Positions 25,260 to 47,543 of a stretch of DNA of 64,000 bases are shown here, in pieces (within the stretch, counting starts at the first letter, position 1; each line of letters opens with the position of its first letter). This DNA is from an uncultured Rubrobacteraceae bacterium. GTDB taxonomy: Bacteria > Actinomycetota > Rubrobacteria > Rubrobacterales > Rubrobacteraceae. Below the pieces are notes generated by a model. That model was not told where the DNA came from. It saw only the letters and a list, made by a program, of their open reading frames with translations, and did no database searches. The stretch spans positions 62,001 through 126,000 of the forward strand of contig CADCVF010000024.1 in assembly GCA_902806095.1 (NCBI GenBank), in the 5' to 3' direction. A program made the translations under genes and the position numbers.

Positions 25260-26678
25260 CTAGGGACCCCCGACCAGGATGTCGGCTGCGGTCTCGCTCA
25301 AGGCGAGAAGCGGCTCGGGCCAGAGTCCCACGGCCAACGCCAGCGCGGCTAAGAGGACCACGACTACGCGCGGCGCCACCGGGCTCGGCTTGCCGCGGTC
25401 CCCTTGGTCGTCCGGTTTCGGCGCCCAGAAGCGGCTCTGGTAGATCTGGAAGGAGTACACGAAAGAGAGCGCGCTTCCGAGAAAGATCAGGACAACCAGG
25501 GCGACGCTCGTGGGGACCGTCCCGGACGCGAGGCCGCTCTCGAAGAGCGCCACCTTCCCGAGGAATCCAGCGGTCGGGGGGACCCCCGCCACGGAGAAGG
25601 CCCCGACGGCGAACGCCGGGCCGACCAGGGGACCGCGCAGGCCGGCGGCCAGGAAGAGCAGCCCCTTGTTCAGTGAGTTCACGACCGCGTAGAGCACGGC
25701 CGCCGCGTAACCGACCGTTCCGCCGACGCCCAGGGCCACGAGGACGTAGCCGGCCTGACCTATCGCTGAGTAGGCGAGGACCTCCGAGGTGTCGCGGCGC
25801 GAGATCGCCTGCAGCGCCCCGTAGATTATGCTCGCGGTCCCGAGGACCACCACGACGGCCGACCCGAACTCGAGCTCCCTGGGTAGCAGGCCGCCGCCGA
25901 AGCGCAGCAGCCCATAGCTTCCGATGTTCGCCAGGGCACCCGAGAGGATGGCGGCTACGGGCGGGTGGCTCCCGACGTAGACCGCCGGCAGCCAGAAGTG
26001 GAACGGGAAGAGTCCGAGCTTCAGGCTGAAAGCCACGAAGATGGCGGCTGCTATGGCGATCACCGAGTTCGGCTGCACGGGATCTATCCGCTCGGCGATG
26101 GTCACCATGTCCAGGCTGCCGGTGACGTGGTAGAGCGCGGCGACCCCTATGAGGAAGACGACCGAGCCCAGCAGGTTTATGACGGCGAAGATGAAAGCCG
26201 CGCGCACCTGGTGGTCTTGCTCCCGATAGCTCGCCAGCACGTACGCCGCGGTCATGGAGACCTCGAAGAACACGTAGAAGTTGAAGACATCTCCCGTCAG
26301 AAACAGTCCCGTGAGCCCCGCGGTCATGAACACGACCAACGCCGGGAATGTCCGCGAGCGCACCCCGCCCAGAACCTCGTAGAGCAGGGAGGCGAAGATC
26401 ACCCCGACGGAGACGAGCGCGAACGTGGCGCCCAGAGCGTCGGCCCTTAACGTTATCCCGACCCCCTCCGGCCATCCTCCCGCGGTCATCTCGACCCTGC
26501 CTCCGCCTACGACCAGCACGGCCAGCCGCGCGAGCGCGGCCAGGGTCGCCCCGAGGCCCGCGACCGCGACCCACCCCACCCACCGCTTGCGGCCGTCGAG
26601 GAGAGAGAGCGCCGCCGCGAGCGCCCACGGGATGCCGACAGCGAGCGCGAGTACCAAGGACTCTGCCGGGACCCTCAC
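25260..26678 (-). CDS. mrpD: Na+/H+ antiporter subunit D (MrpD/MnhD), NuoN/L-like
   Basis: 472 residues with about 14 helices. It belongs to the proton-translocating antiporter family shared with complex I: FFEVSMTAAYVLASY carries the helix-5 Glu, LKLGLFPFHFWLPAVY the helix-7 Lys region, and YSAIGQAGYVLVALG a later helix. The GTG start overlaps the mrpC stop by 4 bases. With MrpA it forms the two ion-moving modules. Confidence 0.95.
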   Translation of the reverse strand: MRVPAESLVLALAVGIPWALAAALSLLDGRKRWVGWVAVAGLGATLAALARLAVLVVGGGRVEMTAGGWPEGVGITLRADALGATFALVSVGVIFASLLYEVLGGVRSRTFPALVVFMTAGLTGLFLTGDVFNFYVFFEVSMTAAYVLASYREQDHQVRAAFIFAVINLLGSVVFLIGVAALYHVTGSLDMVTIAERIDPVQPNSVIAIAAAIFVAFSLKLGLFPFHFWLPAVYVGSHPPVAAILSGALANIGSYGLLRFGGGLLPRELEFGSAVVVVLGTASIIYGALQAISRRDTSEVLAYSAIGQAGYVLVALGVGGTVGYAAAVLYAVVNSLNKGLLFLAAGLRGPLVGPAFAVGAFSVAGVPPTAGFLGKVALFESGLASGTVPTSVALVVLIFLGSALSFVYSFQIYQSRFWAPKPDDQGDRGKPSPVAPRVVVVLLAALALAVGLWPEPLLALSETAADILVGGP

Positions 26679-27118
26679 CGTGTTTCCTCCTCGAGCTCAA
26701 CCTCCGCGGGCTTGCCCTCTGGTTCCTCTTCGCGCTCGGGCTCTTCCTCCCTCTCCAGGGCCTCGGCCTCGCGGGTCTCCGCCTCCGAGATGTCCTCGAC
26801 GTCCACGGTGCGGTGCGCTGCGTAGAGTCGGTAGACTAGCCCTAGGAGCAAGGCGGCCGTGCTGAAGCTTATGACGATGGCTGTCAGGGCCATCGCCTGG
26901 ACCAGCGGATCGCTCGTCCCAGCGTCCAGCAAGCCCCCCTCCGGGAGCGGGTAGATCGGCGCGTCCCCCCGCGACAAGCCGGCGGCGATTATGAAGAGGA
27001 TCGCCGAATTGGAGACAAAGACTATCCCCACGACCACCCGGAGCAGGTCGCGCTGCAAAAGCAGGAACACCCCGGAGCCGAAGATAGCCGAGATCGCGAG
27101 CGAGACGGCCAGGATCAC
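26675..27118 (-). CDS. mrpC: Na+/H+ antiporter subunit C (MrpC/MnhC), NuoK-like
   Basis: 147 residues; the first 115 form three helices with GVFLLLQRDLLRVVVGIVF and the conserved DPLVQAMALTAIVISFS, as in NuoK and MrpC. After these comes an extension of about 35 residues almost entirely Glu, Arg and Ala, which is longer than usual. GTG start overlapping the mrpB stop by 4 bases. Confidence 0.93.
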   Translation of the reverse strand: MILAVSLAISAIFGSGVFLLLQRDLLRVVVGIVFVSNSAILFIIAAGLSRGDAPIYPLPEGGLLDAGTSDPLVQAMALTAIVISFSTAALLLGLVYRLYAAHRTVDVEDISEAETREAEALEREEEPEREEEPEGKPAEVELEEETR

Positions 27119-27678
27119 TCCCTCGTCCCCTCGCCGCTGCGCCCTTCTCCCCGTTCCACGCCTGTTCCGGCCCGATTGTGCCCGCCGCCAGCCTCGCCAG
27201 CGCGGGCGAAAATCGTAACCGTGCCGACCGCGAACCCAAAGACGAGCAGGAAGACGCCGACGTCGAAGAGGACGGCGGTTATCAGCTCGAGCGTCCCCAG
27301 GTAGACGACTTTCGAGCCGGGGGGCGGGTAGTGGGTCAGGACCGCGTCCCCGAAAAGCAGCGGCGCGGCGGCTACGCCGATCGACGCGAGCAGTCCCACG
27401 AACGCCAGGGGCACGGCGTGCCGCACGACCGGTAGCTTCTCCGCCTCTTCGCGACCGAAGGCCAGGTACTGGAGCAGGACGCCGAGGGCCGCCACAACGC
27501 CGGCGGAGAAGCCGTCGCCGGATTCCGCGTAGCCCTTGACGAGGATGCCCGCGGCGACGAGGAGCGCCGGGAGCAGTAGTAGCCTGGCCACCTTGCGCGC
27601 CATGACGCTGGTCGCAGGCTCCGCCCGAGGGTTAGCATCGGGGGTCGCTCCAGGAACGCCCGGCGGACCGGGGCTCAC
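27115..27678 (-). CDS. mrpB: Na+/H+ antiporter subunit B (MrpB/MnhB)
   Basis: 187 residues from a GTG that overlaps the mrpA stop by 4 bases; an internal ATG at 27603 precedes the first helix and could be the true start. Four helices, with KGYAESGDGFSAGVVAALG, the typical MrpB segment. The C-terminal tail is rich in Gly, Glu and Arg. Separate from the MrpB-like domain fused at the end of mrpA, as in other seven-gene operons. Confidence 0.92.
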   Translation of the reverse strand: MSPGPPGVPGATPDANPRAEPATSVMARKVARLLLLPALLVAAGILVKGYAESGDGFSAGVVAALGVLLQYLAFGREEAEKLPVVRHAVPLAFVGLLASIGVAAAPLLFGDAVLTHYPPPGSKVVYLGTLELITAVLFDVGVFLLVFGFAVGTVTIFARAGEAGGGHNRAGTGVERGEGRSGEGTRE

Positions 27679-29990
27679 CGCGTGCCCCCTCGGCCGAGGA
27701 GGGTCGCCACCCCGAGGAGGACCAGCGCGACGACGGTGATCTCGCCCAAGGTGTCCAGCCCGCGAAAGTCCGCGAGGATCGCCGTGACAGCGTCCTTGGC
27801 GTGGGCCTCGGGCGTCAGCCGGAGGAGTTTCCGGGCGACGCTCTCTTCAGCGGCCGGCTGTGATAGCGCCCCCCACACTACCGCAAAGGCGAAGGCCGCT
27901 GCCACCAACGAGATCAGGGCCTTGCGCCGCGGCCTCTGCAGCGGCAGCTCCGCCTGACGGTGTAAGACCTCGTAAGGGATCAGCTTGAGGGTCGCGACGA
28001 ACAGCAGCGTTAGTATGGTCTCGACCAGAACCGCCACGAGCGCCACGTCCGGCGCTCCGAAGAAGGCATAGACCACCGCCAGCATGAAGCCCGCGCCCGA
28101 GAGGACCAGCGCGAGGGTGACGTGTGGTCGCGTGCGGGTCGCCGCGAGCGAGGCGACTGCTGCCGCCGCGAGCGCCAGCAAGAGCGGCGCCTCCCCCGCC
28201 CGGAGCTCCCCCACCCGGTAGGCACCCGCCGAGGGGGTCGCCAGAACCCCAGCGCCGACGAGCACGCCCGCAGGCAAGAGTATGGCCGCGACCCTGCTCC
28301 TGAGGTCGCGCACCTCCGCCCAGTGCGCCCAGTCCGACAGACGGTTGAGCCCCCTCAGGGTCAGATCGTAGATACGCTCGGGCCCCACCCTCTCCCCGAG
28401 CCGGGAGACGCCGAGCGCCGACCGGGACCAGGCCGGCCAGGAGAGAACGATCAGGGCGCCTAACCCGTAAGCCGCGAGCGCCATAAGGTTCTCGGGGCGG
28501 GCGTCGAGGTGGTAGGCAGGCTCCACCGGCGTCGGGGACGCGAAGGAGGCCTTCCCAGCGGCCTCGGCTAGCGCCTCGAACGGCCCGACGAGGATACCCC
28601 CCACTAGCACGAGCGCCCCCAGTACCACAACTGGCGCGACGAGGGCCGCCGGCAACTGGCGCTCCCCGTGCGTCCCCTCGCCAGGGGCGCCGAGGAAGAT
28701 GCCGCTCCAGAAGCGCCAGATGTAGGCGAGCGTCAGCGCCGCCCACAGCACCGCGAGGGCGGCGAGAGCGGGGCCCCGCTCAAGCGCTGCGCCGAAGAGG
28801 AGTTCGTCCTTGAAAAAGCCGATGGTGAGGGGCACCGCTCCCAGCCCCGCAGCGGCGGCCCCGCTCGCCGCCGCCAGTACCGGCATGCGTTTCCTCAGGC
28901 CCCCAAGCCTGCTCAGGCGGTCCTCACCCGTCGCCTCCGTCACTGCGCCGGCGGTCAGGAACAGCGCGCTCTTGGAGAGCGCGTGGGCGATCACGTAGAA
29001 GGAGGCTCCAGCGACGCCGTACTTCCCGCCGAGGCCGAACATATAGACGACGTAGCCGTACTGGCTTATCGTGGAGTAGGCGAGGAGCTGCTTGAGGACG
29101 TCGCGCGTGAGCGCCAGGAAGCCGCCGACGATGACGGACGCGGCGCCAAACAACAGGAAGCTGTCGAGGAGGACCTCACTCTTTTGCAAGAGCGGGTACA
29201 CGCGCCCGATCAGCAAGACCCCGGCGGCGACCATCGCTGCGGAGTGCAAATAGGCGGAGACCGGTGTTGGCGCGGCCATCGCCCGCGGCAGCCAGAAGTG
29301 CAGCGGCGCCTGGGCGCTCTTCGCGAGCCCGGCGACCGCGATCAGGAGGCCCGAGACGGTGAGGAGAGGGCCCGGCTCGACCATGCGGGCGAGCTCCGGG
29401 ACGGAGAAGGTCCCGTATGCAGCGTGGAGCATCAGGGCGCCTATCAGGAGGAGGACCGCCGTGACGCCGGTTACGAGTAGGGCCATGAGCGCCGAGGCAC
29501 GGGCGTCCGGGTCGTGGCGATCAAAGCCGATCAGGTAGTACGAGGCTATGGCCGTCAGGTCCCAGAACACGAAGATCAGAATGAGGTCCTGCGCCATCGC
29601 CAAGCCCACCATCGAGCCCATGAAGAGCAAGATAAAGAAGTAGAAGCCCACGCCGTCGGACTCAGGTCGTCCCTCGTGCCCCAGGTGCAGCGGCAGGTAG
29701 CGTGACGAGTACACCAGTACCGCGAAGCCGATCCCGGTAGCCAGCAGGGCGTAGAGCGCCGCTAGCCCGTCGAACGCCACAGCGAACCGTATCTCCCAAG
29801 TAGGGGCCCACGCCACGTCGATCACGCCGCCGCCCATTCCCCACCCCCAGAGCGAGGCCCCGAAGGCCAGGGCGGCCAGGGTTGCCCCGACCGGCGCCGC
29901 GAGCGAGGGCCGTAAGTACCCGGCGAGCGCCGAGGCGGGGGCTGCGAGGAGGGCTGCGAGAAGTGGAAGGAGCACCCAGAGCGTCGTCAT
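27675..29990 (-). CDS. mrpA: Na+/H+ antiporter subunit A (MrpA/MnhA), NuoL-like with DUF4040/MbhE-type C terminus
   Basis: 771 residues with about 20 helices. The NuoL-like part contains LIFVFWDLTAIASYYLIGFD (helix-5 acidic residue), AKSAQAPLHFWLPRAMAAPT and YSTISQYGYVVYMFG. The C-terminal part (about 590-765) contains the GAPDVALVAVLVETILTLLF motif of DUF4040 and an RGLDTLGEITVVA segment that resembles MbhE. First gene of the operon mrpABCDEFG; all joints but E-F overlap or touch. Mrp complexes export Na+ for protons, giving alkali and salt tolerance. Confidence 0.95.
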   Translation of the reverse strand: MTTLWVLLPLLAALLAAPASALAGYLRPSLAAPVGATLAALAFGASLWGWGMGGGVIDVAWAPTWEIRFAVAFDGLAALYALLATGIGFAVLVYSSRYLPLHLGHEGRPESDGVGFYFFILLFMGSMVGLAMAQDLILIFVFWDLTAIASYYLIGFDRHDPDARASALMALLVTGVTAVLLLIGALMLHAAYGTFSVPELARMVEPGPLLTVSGLLIAVAGLAKSAQAPLHFWLPRAMAAPTPVSAYLHSAAMVAAGVLLIGRVYPLLQKSEVLLDSFLLFGAASVIVGGFLALTRDVLKQLLAYSTISQYGYVVYMFGLGGKYGVAGASFYVIAHALSKSALFLTAGAVTEATGEDRLSRLGGLRKRMPVLAAASGAAAAGLGAVPLTIGFFKDELLFGAALERGPALAALAVLWAALTLAYIWRFWSGIFLGAPGEGTHGERQLPAALVAPVVVLGALVLVGGILVGPFEALAEAAGKASFASPTPVEPAYHLDARPENLMALAAYGLGALIVLSWPAWSRSALGVSRLGERVGPERIYDLTLRGLNRLSDWAHWAEVRDLRSRVAAILLPAGVLVGAGVLATPSAGAYRVGELRAGEAPLLLALAAAAVASLAATRTRPHVTLALVLSGAGFMLAVVYAFFGAPDVALVAVLVETILTLLFVATLKLIPYEVLHRQAELPLQRPRRKALISLVAAAFAFAVVWGALSQPAAEESVARKLLRLTPEAHAKDAVTAILADFRGLDTLGEITVVALVLLGVATLLGRGGTR

Positions 29991-44380: not shown

Positions 44381-44577
44381 TCAGCATTTCAGCCACTCAG
44401 CACGCGCCCTGCGGGCGCTTGTCAGCACTTCAGCCAGTCATCCCGTAGCCTCGCCAACAGCGTAGAACCCGACTGCTGTTGGTAGCGATTCGTCGTGCGC
44501 GGCAGGGCAGGGTCCGGAACGGCAGAAGCTGAATTGCTGACAAGCGGAGGGGTCAGCCGGAGCGTGCTGAAGTGCTA
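44379..44577. repeat. Dispersed repeat locus B: inverted copies around a unique payload
   Basis: Forward part 44379-44439, beginning on the moeA stop codon: AGTCAGCATTTCAGCCACTC, a GC-rich spacer, then TTGTCAGCACTTCAGCC. Inverted part 44526-44577 (AAGCTGAATTGCTGACAAGC, then GGAGCGTGCTGAAGTGC). The 86-bp payload contains CCAACAGC/GCTGTTGG (44453-44460 and 44475-44482), a perfect 8-bp stem. Same architecture as loci A and D with a different payload. Confidence 0.8.
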
Positions 44578-44590
44578 AAATTACCTTCCG

Positions 44591-45658
44591 ATGTTCGAGT
44601 CAGATCTCGAAGATAACGTCTTCCGCAGGCGGCTGATGAAGGAAGTGGCACCGGGGGTTCCGGTTCACTTCTCTTTTTATTCGCCTTCGGTCAAGGTGCA
44701 GGTGATGTACCCCGCGGAGAATCTCCCAGGGGCGAACGGCCGCTACATCGGGGACGCTGTCACCATCGAGTTCGTCCCGGATGACGCTGCGGCCGTCGAG
44801 CGGGTCCGCGAGTACGTCTGGCACTGGGAGGGATACAACGCCTTCACGGCTGTACGCAAGATCGACCACCTCAGACGCGGCGTCTGCCCCGAAGGTGTGC
44901 AGGGCATCCTCGAGAGAGTCCGCGGCGTGGACAAGCGGGCCGCCGCGAAGACGGCCGAGGCTCTGGACCCTGAGGAGTTGGAGGAGATACTCTCCAGGGG
45001 GGATTGCAAGACGTTGGCTCGACTGCCAGGCATGGGTGAGAAACGGGCCCGTGCCGTCGTCGAGTTCTACGAGAACGAGAGGGGCGACCGGCGCTTCCTT
45101 TATGCCGCCAACCGCAACGACCGTTTCCGGGGCAAGCCGGTGATCACGGAGCTGGACCTCGGCAGCGACCTCGAAGAGCAGGTGTGGGACCACGCGGTGC
45201 TGGCGCGGAGGCTCGGCGACCCTGACCCGCTCGGGCCCGACGAGCCTCCAGGCCACACCACCGTTCGCAACGCGAACCTCATGCACCCGCTCCCGATGAC
45301 GCCTTCCCTGATGGGCCGGGGTGTCTACTATCCGGAGCAGGTCGGGCGCTTCGCCGACAGATGTAGACGTGTCCTCGTGGACGGGGAGAGGCTGGCCGGT
45401 GTCGGATCTCTACGCATCCAGCGCGGCAAGCTCTTCCACACCACCAAGATGGCCGGCGTTGGGATGAAGACGCGTGCCAGAGTCCTCGCGAGCGGGTTGC
45501 TCGACGACGAGTACACCTACGAGAGCCTCGTCGCCATCCCCGGCGTGACTGTGGCGCAGGCCAGGACCATCGCAGGGGCCGCGAGGGCCGAGGCTGCGAA
45601 AGAGGAACCTGTCCCAGCTTCGCTCGGGGCGGCGCGGACGGAGGTCCGTGTCTCTTAG
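44591..45658 (+). CDS. Helix-hairpin-helix DNA-binding protein of unknown function
   Basis: 355 residues. Two regions look like paired helix-hairpin-helix motifs: residues about 104-160 (ILERVRGVDKRAAAKTAEAL and LARLPGMGEKRARAVVEF, spaced as in RuvA domain II) and about 293-340 (MAGVGMKTRARVLASGLL and LVAIPGVTVAQARTIAGA). Between them is a region of about 110 residues I do not recognise. No catalytic motif is visible. The gene overlaps the exonuclease/GIY-YIG gene by 11 bp, so the proteins are probably made together and could act on the same DNA structure. Its ATG directly follows a dispersed repeat and lacks a clear ribosome site. Confidence 0.7.
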   Translation: MFESDLEDNVFRRRLMKEVAPGVPVHFSFYSPSVKVQVMYPAENLPGANGRYIGDAVTIEFVPDDAAAVERVREYVWHWEGYNAFTAVRKIDHLRRGVCPEGVQGILERVRGVDKRAAAKTAEALDPEELEEILSRGDCKTLARLPGMGEKRARAVVEFYENERGDRRFLYAANRNDRFRGKPVITELDLGSDLEEQVWDHAVLARRLGDPDPLGPDEPPGHTTVRNANLMHPLPMTPSLMGRGVYYPEQVGRFADRCRRVLVDGERLAGVGSLRIQRGKLFHTTKMAGVGMKTRARVLASGLLDDEYTYESLVAIPGVTVAQARTIAGAARAEAAKEEPVPASLGAARTEVRVS

Positions 45659-47447
45659 TCTCTATGGCTTCGTGAAAGATCACGAGCCCGTGAGTCCGGA
45701 AGAGATCTCCACAGAATTCCTCTCTTTGACGAGCCCGAACGGCGATGCAAGGGCCCTCGTCGAGAGGCTCGTCGAAGGCGACCCGAGGTTTACCTGGGAA
45801 GATGCGGACTTGAGGACCGCGCATGTAGGCTCGCTCGCGCTCGAGGAGGCCCCTTACGTCGTCTTCGACGTCGAGACCACAGGCTCCGCGGCCGGGAAGG
45901 GGGGTGCCATCACGGAGTTCGGCGCCCTCAAGCTCTTGCGCGGGGAGGTGATCGACCAGTTCTCGACGCTCGTCAACCCGGGTCGCCCGATAGACTCCTT
46001 CGTGGTGCGTCTGACAGGCATAACGGACCGCATGGTCTCGGATGCCCCTTCCATCTCCGAGGTAATGCCGCGCTTCGAGGAGTTTGTCGAGGGGTGTATC
46101 CTCGTCGGGCACAATGTCCACTTCGACTGCTCCTTCGTCACGGCTGCAAGAGGTGGGGATCCACTCTCCAACGAAGTCCTCGACACCCTGAAACTCGCCC
46201 GTTGCCTGGTGCCTGGTCTCAAACGCTACCGTCTGGGCGCGCTCGTCAGCCACTTCGGCGTGCGCCAGGCGCCGAACCACAGGGCCCTCTCCGACGCTGC
46301 TGCCACGACGGAGATCTTCCGGAGACTGCTGAAGCTCCTCGGCTCCGCAGGCATAGAGAGCGTAGGTGAAGCGCTCGCTATCCGCGGGGGAAGGGGACGC
46401 ATCAAACCCCAGAAGCAGCACCTCGCAAGCGGGTTGCCGAACACGCCGGGTGTCTACTACTTCGTCGACAAGCACGGCACCACGCTCTACGTCGGCAAGG
46501 CGAAGGACCTGAAGACCCGAGTCAGGACCTACTTCAACGGCGGGGACGGACGCCGCAAGGTAGGGCGTCTCGTCGAAGAAGTCGCCGAGGTACGCGTCAA
46601 GGAGACCGAGAGCGAGCTTCACGCCCTCATCCTCGAGGCCAGGGAGATAAAACGCCTGTTGCCGCGCTACAACTCCGTCGGCAGGGACGACAAGGCCAGC
46701 TGGTTTCTAAGGCTCGACACCAATGAGCCTTACCCTGTACCCGAGCGGGTCTCCGCTAACCCGCCCGAGGGGGGTCTCATCCACCTCGGCCCGTACAGGA
46801 GCGCCGGGGTCCTGGACACCTGCATCGAGGCTCTAGGCAGGATCTTCCCACTCAAGAGGTGCTCGGGTGATGGGGAGGTCTGCTTCTACGGCCAGCTGGG
46901 ACGCTGCGCGCCGTGCCTGGGCATGGGTGAGCAGGAATACCGCAGGGAGGTCGTAGACGAGGTGGTCGCGCTCCTGCGCGGCGAGGGTGGCGAGGAGCAC
47001 CTGAGGGCGCTGGTCAGGGAGCGGGAAAGGATGGCCGCGGCGCTCGAGTTCGAGGCCGCGGCCAGGCTGCGAGACTTGATCTCCGGCATAGAGCGGATAC
47101 GCTTCTCCAGGACCGTAGTAGGCGCTGAGGGTGTTCAGGCCGTCGTCGCCCCATCGACGGAGCCAGGTGTGATCGAGGTGTTCATCCTGAGCGCGGGCCG
47201 TCTAATCGCCCACCGCGGCTTCGACCCTGGCGATGCGAGCGGCCTCGCACGCTTCGCCGAGGAGGTGCTGGAGGGGACCAGGGATAACGGGTCCCGTCCC
47301 GAGAAGGAAGGCACGAACGAGGCGCGAATCGTCGCGGCCTATCTCAGGCGCCGGCAGGCAGTGGTCGAGGCCGTGCGCCTGAAAGAAGCGCGGGATCTCC
47401 TGGAGGCGGCGGAAAGGGTCGGCGAGGCCGCGGTCCCGCTGGAGTGA
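45648..47447 (+). CDS. DEDD 3'-5' exonuclease / GIY-YIG (UvrC N-terminal-like) / UVR fusion protein
   Basis: 599 residues, GTG start inside the previous gene. Residues about 68-235 are a DnaQ-type exonuclease: VVFDVETTG (Asp74, Glu76), GHNVHFDCSF and NHRALSDAAATTEI. Residues about 260-345 are a GIY-YIG nuclease: LPNTPGVYYFVDKHG, TLYVGKAKDLKTRVRTYF. A RCAPCLG cysteine pair and a UVR helix (MAAALEFEAAARLRDLISGI) follow. It resembles the UvrC first half but lacks the RNase H-like second nuclease and the HhH pair of UvrC. Mycobacteria and other actinobacteria have such fusions; the function is unproven, probably DNA repair. Confidence 0.9.
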   Translation: MSLSLYGFVKDHEPVSPEEISTEFLSLTSPNGDARALVERLVEGDPRFTWEDADLRTAHVGSLALEEAPYVVFDVETTGSAAGKGGAITEFGALKLLRGEVIDQFSTLVNPGRPIDSFVVRLTGITDRMVSDAPSISEVMPRFEEFVEGCILVGHNVHFDCSFVTAARGGDPLSNEVLDTLKLARCLVPGLKRYRLGALVSHFGVRQAPNHRALSDAAATTEIFRRLLKLLGSAGIESVGEALAIRGGRGRIKPQKQHLASGLPNTPGVYYFVDKHGTTLYVGKAKDLKTRVRTYFNGGDGRRKVGRLVEEVAEVRVKETESELHALILEAREIKRLLPRYNSVGRDDKASWFLRLDTNEPYPVPERVSANPPEGGLIHLGPYRSAGVLDTCIEALGRIFPLKRCSGDGEVCFYGQLGRCAPCLGMGEQEYRREVVDEVVALLRGEGGEEHLRALVRERERMAAALEFEAAARLRDLISGIERIRFSRTVVGAEGVQAVVAPSTEPGVIEVFILSAGRLIAHRGFDPGDASGLARFAEEVLEGTRDNGSRPEKEGTNEARIVAAYLRRRQAVVEAVRLKEARDLLEAAERVGEAAVPLE

Positions 47448-47543
47448 GGAGCCGCCGAATTCAGGAGGCTTTGTACTCCCTCATGCTAGAATAAGTAAGG
47501 TGAATTAGTGGTTCCTGTGTACAAGAAGAGAGTTTGACCGGGG

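Follow-up and report, generated by a model that had tools for sequence, protein, structure and literature searches.

Introduction

The closest described relatives of the locus reported here are the Cho-like+Exo nucleases, a named architecture that is specific to Actinobacteria (PMC1564403). A proposal of 2002 (Van Houten 2002), cited in PMC1564403 and made for mycobacterial relatives, is that the GIY-YIG domain makes the incision and the exonuclease then degrades the strand from there, past the lesion. In the literature searched we found no test of this nick-and-digest proposal, and a search for the mycobacterial relative by locus tag returned no paper. UvrC carries a C-terminal tandem helix-hairpin-helix domain, (HhH)2, which is needed for binding of single-stranded DNA and for 5' incision and may act in 3' incision in some contexts (PMC7835731). 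A DEDDh exonuclease also takes part in the repair of DNA adducts in Bacillus subtilis, where MrfB digests in the 3'-5' direction (PMC11194089).

Here we analyse a gene pair in a 64-kb stretch of DNA from an uncultured member of the Rubrobacteraceae, which we call the window. One gene encodes a fusion nuclease of the Cho-like+Exo type. The new item is its partner, an undescribed, class-restricted and operon-linked double-(HhH)2 protein; no paper was found on this Rubrobacter HhH protein. The genus Rubrobacter includes strongly radiation-resistant species, and for this reason a class-wide putative repair gene outside the known families merits attention.

Results

Layout of the locus

The features of the two genes and their borders are as follows.

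44573..44581, + strand: extended -10 promoter TGCTAAAAT, 9 nt upstream of the HhH start codon
44591..45658, + strand: ORF with ATG start, 355 aa, double-(HhH)2 protein P0001 (the HhH protein), a family restricted to Rubrobacteria
44591..44878, + strand: N-terminal part of P0001, residues 1-96; no family match, alpha/beta model of low confidence
44879..45082, + strand: first (HhH)2, residues 97-164, RuvA domain II-like (HHH_5 3e-8; RuvA Z 8.6-10.2)
45086..45412, + strand: middle region, residues 166-274, with strong conservation and without a family match; motifs NRNDR, EPPGHTTxR and PxPMTP
45413..45604, + strand: second (HhH)2, residues 275-338, DisA/RAD51/UvrC-like (Z 5.1-7.7; HHH 0.0034)
45640..45644, + strand: Shine-Dalgarno GGAGG for the fusion gene, within the last codons of the HhH gene
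45648..45658, + strand: 11-bp overlap (GTGTCTCTTAG) of the HhH gene end and the fusion gene start
45648..47447, + strand: ORF with GTG start, 599 aa, DEDDh exonuclease/GIY-YIG/C4/UVR fusion P0002 (the fusion), Cho-like+Exo type (NF005906)
45648..45833, + strand: N-terminal extension of P0002, residues 1-62, no Pfam match
45858..46319, + strand: DEDDh exonuclease domain, residues 71-224 (Pfam RNase_T, 2e-34)
46449..46673, + strand: GIY-YIG nuclease domain, residues 268-342 (Pfam)
46860..46916, + strand: four-cysteine (C4) region, residues 405-423 (alignment)
47001..47096, + strand: UVR (UvrB-binding) motif, residues 452-483 (Pfam)
47484..47492, + strand: extended -10-like box (TGCTAGAAT; hexamer 47487-47492) before a phoB-like gene, marking the end of the unit

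Neither of the two reading frames is a chance ORF, since both are conserved across the family. Elsewhere in the window, positions 25260-29990 on the - strand form a high-GC, AT-skewed stretch that encodes large membrane proteins resembling subunits of the NADH-dehydrogenase/Mrp-antiporter type, which is ordinary.

The fusion is a member of the Cho-like+Exo class

The fusion scores 584.8 bits against NF005906 (DEDD exonuclease domain-containing protein), where the cut-off is 495. Its DEDDh residues (D74/E76/D160/H211/D216) and GIY-YIG residues (Y270/Y281/R291/E330/N342) are intact, and both sets are invariant in 44 fusions, i.e., 33 family orthologues and 11 proteins of other families. Of the 33 family rows, 32 extend over the C4 region, and each of these has the cysteines 405, 412, 420 and 423. 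Pfam finds neither a UvrC RNase H nor an HhH domain in the protein. Thus, ORFs and Pfam confirm what the preliminary description had read from the letters, an 11-bp overlap followed by a fusion with the N-terminal-type nuclease and the UVR motif of UvrC and without its RNase H or HhH parts.

That description had not included the N-terminal extension of about 62 residues, which is found in all family orthologues and in one of the 11 fusions of other families (L126); nor had it mentioned the promoter or, in the HhH protein, the conserved middle and N-terminal segments. In rubrobacterial UvrC, a serine takes the place of one C4 cysteine (GRSAAPC) in all four proteins read (L116-L119, from the genome of the window and from relatives), while no C4 cysteine is lost from the Cho-like+Exo protein of these genomes. 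A link of the fusion to defence systems was considered and rejected, the matches being limited to the generic DEDDh and GIY-YIG parts.

The gene pair is not a split UvrC

The preliminary description regarded the pair as a UvrC-like module split over two genes. This is ruled out, because the genome of the window has a complete UvrC elsewhere (G000:C53), with GIY-YIG, UVR, RNase H and HhH domains, and because the HhH protein shows no sequence relationship to it. In a BLAST comparison with this UvrC, the HhH protein gives an E-value of 0.5, no kinship beyond chance, and it contains no UvrC_RNaseH domain; the strongest resemblance of its first HhH pair is to RuvA domain II. The genome also has UvrB and its own RuvA elsewhere. 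With complete UvrC and UvrB at hand, basic excision repair does not depend on the pair, which has the look of a lineage-specific addition to DNA repair.

The HhH protein combines two HhH pairs with a conserved middle region

Pfam detects one HhH pair in this protein, HHH_5 at residues 107-158. The second pair, at about 275-338, is weak by sequence, but it is present in structure models, made for the HhH protein and for its C-terminal half, and aligns to the (HhH)2 folds of DisA, RAD51 and UvrC. Searches of Pfam and NCBIfam returned no family beyond generic HhH and no match to a nuclease family. The earlier picture of an upstream protein with two HhH pairs and no nuclease is thereby upheld, the second pair by modelling. 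A fold search with the N-terminal part gave weak matches only. Identities of the protein range from 72 to 89% in the family members sampled; with a mean of 77% it is more conserved than the fusion (69%) and similar to moeA (78%).

By both sequence and fold, RuvA domain II is the nearest match to the first HhH pair, and there are XPF/ERCC1-type matches too. These likenesses would fit a pair that acts on branched DNA (flaps, forks, Holliday-type junctions) and not on lesions: the RuvA-like HhH protein would recognise the branch, the GIY-YIG domain would cut and the exonuclease would trim the 3' end, in a manner comparable to Slx1 and its partner. However, the HhH protein has no recognisable counterpart of OB domain I or RuvB-binding domain III of RuvA, the genome is already served by a RuvA of its own, and the fusion keeps the UVR motif and the C4 region typical of UvrC. 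We consider action on branched DNA unlikely.

The middle region contains many invariant polar residues (N174, R175, N176, D177, R178, E187, D212, E218, H222 and E249). Its model is weak, with pLDDT mostly 40-86, and structure comparison of this weak model gave no match above background. The large size and conservation of the region suggest a role beyond gripping DNA. It could be a catalytic domain held between two (HhH)2 grips, which would make the HhH protein itself an enzyme, for example for a second cut. Invariant Asn, Arg, Asp, Glu and His residues in a region that matches no family, and has no good fold match, are what such an enzyme could present; but the model from which a fold would be read has low confidence, conservation is high all over the protein, and conserved loops may simply bind DNA or a partner. 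An enzymatic HhH protein is improbable in our judgement.

Distribution of the two genes

The HhH gene was found in 37 of 39 Rubrobacteria genomes, including all 22 of good quality. Of the two genomes that lack it, one is 77% complete and the other 60%. One of the two, G014, has its fusion match at the extreme beginning of a contig, which would place the upstream gene beyond the contig's edge. In the 39 genomes of the class, wherever the contig extends far enough, the HhH gene adjoins the fusion, and it is never found apart from it. An HhH gene occurring mostly without the fusion, which the preliminary description named as a refutation, is thus not what is observed. Relatives of the gene, among them named Rubrobacter loci of the GTDB family to which the window belongs, come from Rubrobacter marinus, R. 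taiwanensis and many MAGs of Rubrobacter or other actinobacteria. A contig scan, which reaches close relatives only, returned just Rubrobacter and other actinobacterial HhH loci, and no relatives of the HhH protein were found in plasmids, phages or viral contigs.

In our phylum sample of 296 genomes, the HhH gene is present in 27, all of the GTDB family of the window. The other 269 have none, just RuvA-like HhH matches of 50-60 residues. Counting as a fusion any match that spans both the exonuclease and the GIY-YIG domain, at least 101 of these 269 genomes have the fusion and no HhH gene, among the matches listed. The HhH gene therefore implies the fusion and not the reverse and, judged by gene content, the nuclease does not generally need the HhH gene. 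The surroundings of the fusion in eight of these genomes showed no HhH partner; trpD-like genes are among the neighbours there. In one genome of another actinobacterial family (G037; L126:2719-6200), the fusion is followed by genes for an HhH-GPD (MutY-like) glycosylase and a NUDIX (MutT-like) protein, which hints that the fusion is connected with oxidative base damage in that genome.

Junction, promoter and operon boundaries

The order moeA-HhH-fusion-phoB-phoR-S2P is kept throughout the class wherever contigs reach. Adjacency alone is therefore weak evidence for a pairing, since the whole block from moeA to S2P is syntenic in Rubrobacteria. The junction is more telling. It is nearly constant, at -11 bp in most relatives and with an overlap of 8 or 5 bp in a few (-8 in L065), whereas the gaps that flank the pair vary from 5 to 270 and from 48 to 310 bp. 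The GGAGG of the fusion is also kept at the junction in most relatives. In one sub-group (L003, L005, L006, L075 and L077, also L053 and L057), GGG replaces the GTG start of the fusion, and an in-frame ATT lies two codons on, before a conserved SLY motif; this ATT is possibly a rare start used in termination-coupled translation.

Upstream of the HhH ATG, the hexamer TA[AG]AAT, mostly as TGnTA[AG]AAT, lies 14-16 nt away in 23 of 23 loci, and the extended -10 box is 9-11 nt from the ATG in all of them. On the + strand of the window this hexamer occurs only five times. A Shine-Dalgarno-like match precedes the HhH ATG in one of the 23 loci. Such a spacing from -10 box to ATG is that of leaderless actinobacterial transcripts, and the transcript of the pair is probably leaderless, going by this spacing. 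Nearly all of the relatives inspected carry a box similar to TGCTAGAAT ahead of phoB. The promoter, the near-constant junction and the separate phoB box therefore define a two-gene unit, and the earlier view of the genes as one conserved unit stands on the overlap, the promoter and the constant company of the HhH gene with the fusion. We conclude that the HhH and fusion genes make up a dedicated bicistronic operon of Rubrobacteria, which is probably leaderless. SOS control of this operon was considered and rejected, because the actinobacterial LexA-type site GAACNNNNGTTC is absent nearby.

Such an operon could reflect coupled expression and nothing more. The fusion would then act with UvrAB and no further partner, as it does in other actinobacteria, and the role of the HhH protein on DNA would be unrelated, the overlap and the shared promoter being a compact packing fixed by descent. 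The many genomes with a lone fusion beside unrelated genes fit this reading, as does the full local synteny of the class. So does the co-variation of the two proteins: their distance correlation, r 0.72, is within the range of 0.70-0.77 seen with the other neighbours, and no excess co-evolution of the pair is seen. Against this reading, the overlap hardly changes although the flanking gaps vary, and no HhH gene was observed that lacked the fusion as its neighbour. We regard coupled expression alone as somewhat doubtful.

Discussion

A tentative model for the gene pair

We favour, as a tentative reading of these comparisons, that the HhH protein binds DNA as an accessory of the Cho-like+Exo nuclease and is particular to this class, in an operon for nick-and-digest removal of lesions. 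UvrB, through the UVR motif, would probably bring the fusion to the lesion, and the GIY-YIG domain would nick a few nucleotides 3' of it. The DEDDh exonuclease would then digest 3'-5' from the new 3'-OH back through the lesion. This would leave a primer for repair synthesis and dispense with the 5' cut of the UvrC type. It is established enzymology that a cut on the 3' side of a lesion exposes a 3'-OH and that a 3'-5' exonuclease starting there passes through the lesion; we infer this polarity of nick and digestion for the fusion. The 3'-5' direction of DEDDh enzymes such as MrfB fits it (PMC11194089). The HhH protein, in Rubrobacteria only, would supply the grip on duplex or junction DNA that the fusion is missing, and most likely holds or recruits DNA for it. 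A separate HhH protein is reasonable for an HhH-less, UvrC-like fusion, because UvrC's own (HhH)2 is needed for ssDNA binding and 5' incision and can affect the 3' incision (PMC7835731). DNA binding by the HhH protein, its contact with the fusion, damage as the substrate and the order of the cuts are what we infer in this model. Against it we count the lack of excess co-variation, the wide occurrence of the fusion alone, the presence of complete UvrC and UvrB, the missing LexA-type site, the class-wide synteny and the large conserved middle of the HhH protein.

The suggestion that the exonuclease replaces the second cut has a sound part, since an exonuclease that starts at a 3' nick could remove the need for a 5' cut. 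It has been made before: the Cho-like+Exo architecture has been named and the 2002 proposal published for the whole nuclease class, and so neither the fusion nor a "different excision chemistry" is new. There is also a bolder version, to which we give little credence, in which the two proteins form one excision machine that is specific to Rubrobacteria. The middle domain of the HhH protein would recognise damaged or branched DNA and deliver it to the nuclease, for nick-and-chew repair beside or without UvrA and UvrC.

Cho-like+Exo nucleases are widespread in Actinomycetota, and a class with a dedicated, operon-linked, putative DNA-binding partner offers a handle on the 2002 proposal. The partner opens the question of whether the HhH protein loads, positions or stimulates the nuclease.

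Comparison with known systems

Residues 97-164 of the HhH protein match the tandem HhH domain II of RuvA by sequence as well as fold, but the protein scores 27.8 bits against a ruvA equivalog cut-off of 85 and its other domains differ. Residues 275-338 resemble the C-terminal (HhH)2 of DisA (Z 7.7); unlike DisA, the HhH protein has no diadenylate cyclase domain that Pfam would match. MrfAB shares with the fusion a DEDDh 3'-5' exonuclease, whereas MrfA is a helicase and that system has no GIY-YIG domain and no HhH partner. UvrC has the order GIY-YIG, C4, UVR in common with the fusion and also bears a C-terminal (HhH)2, but its RNase H nuclease is in neither the fusion nor the HhH protein. The fusion is a member of the Cho-like+Exo class, with the N-terminal DnaQ-type exonuclease, GIY-YIG, four cysteines and UVR motif and without RNase H or HhH. 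It differs from the other members in its N-terminal extension, which is rare outside the class Rubrobacteria in the fusions looked at, and in the HhH partner gene to which it is coupled.
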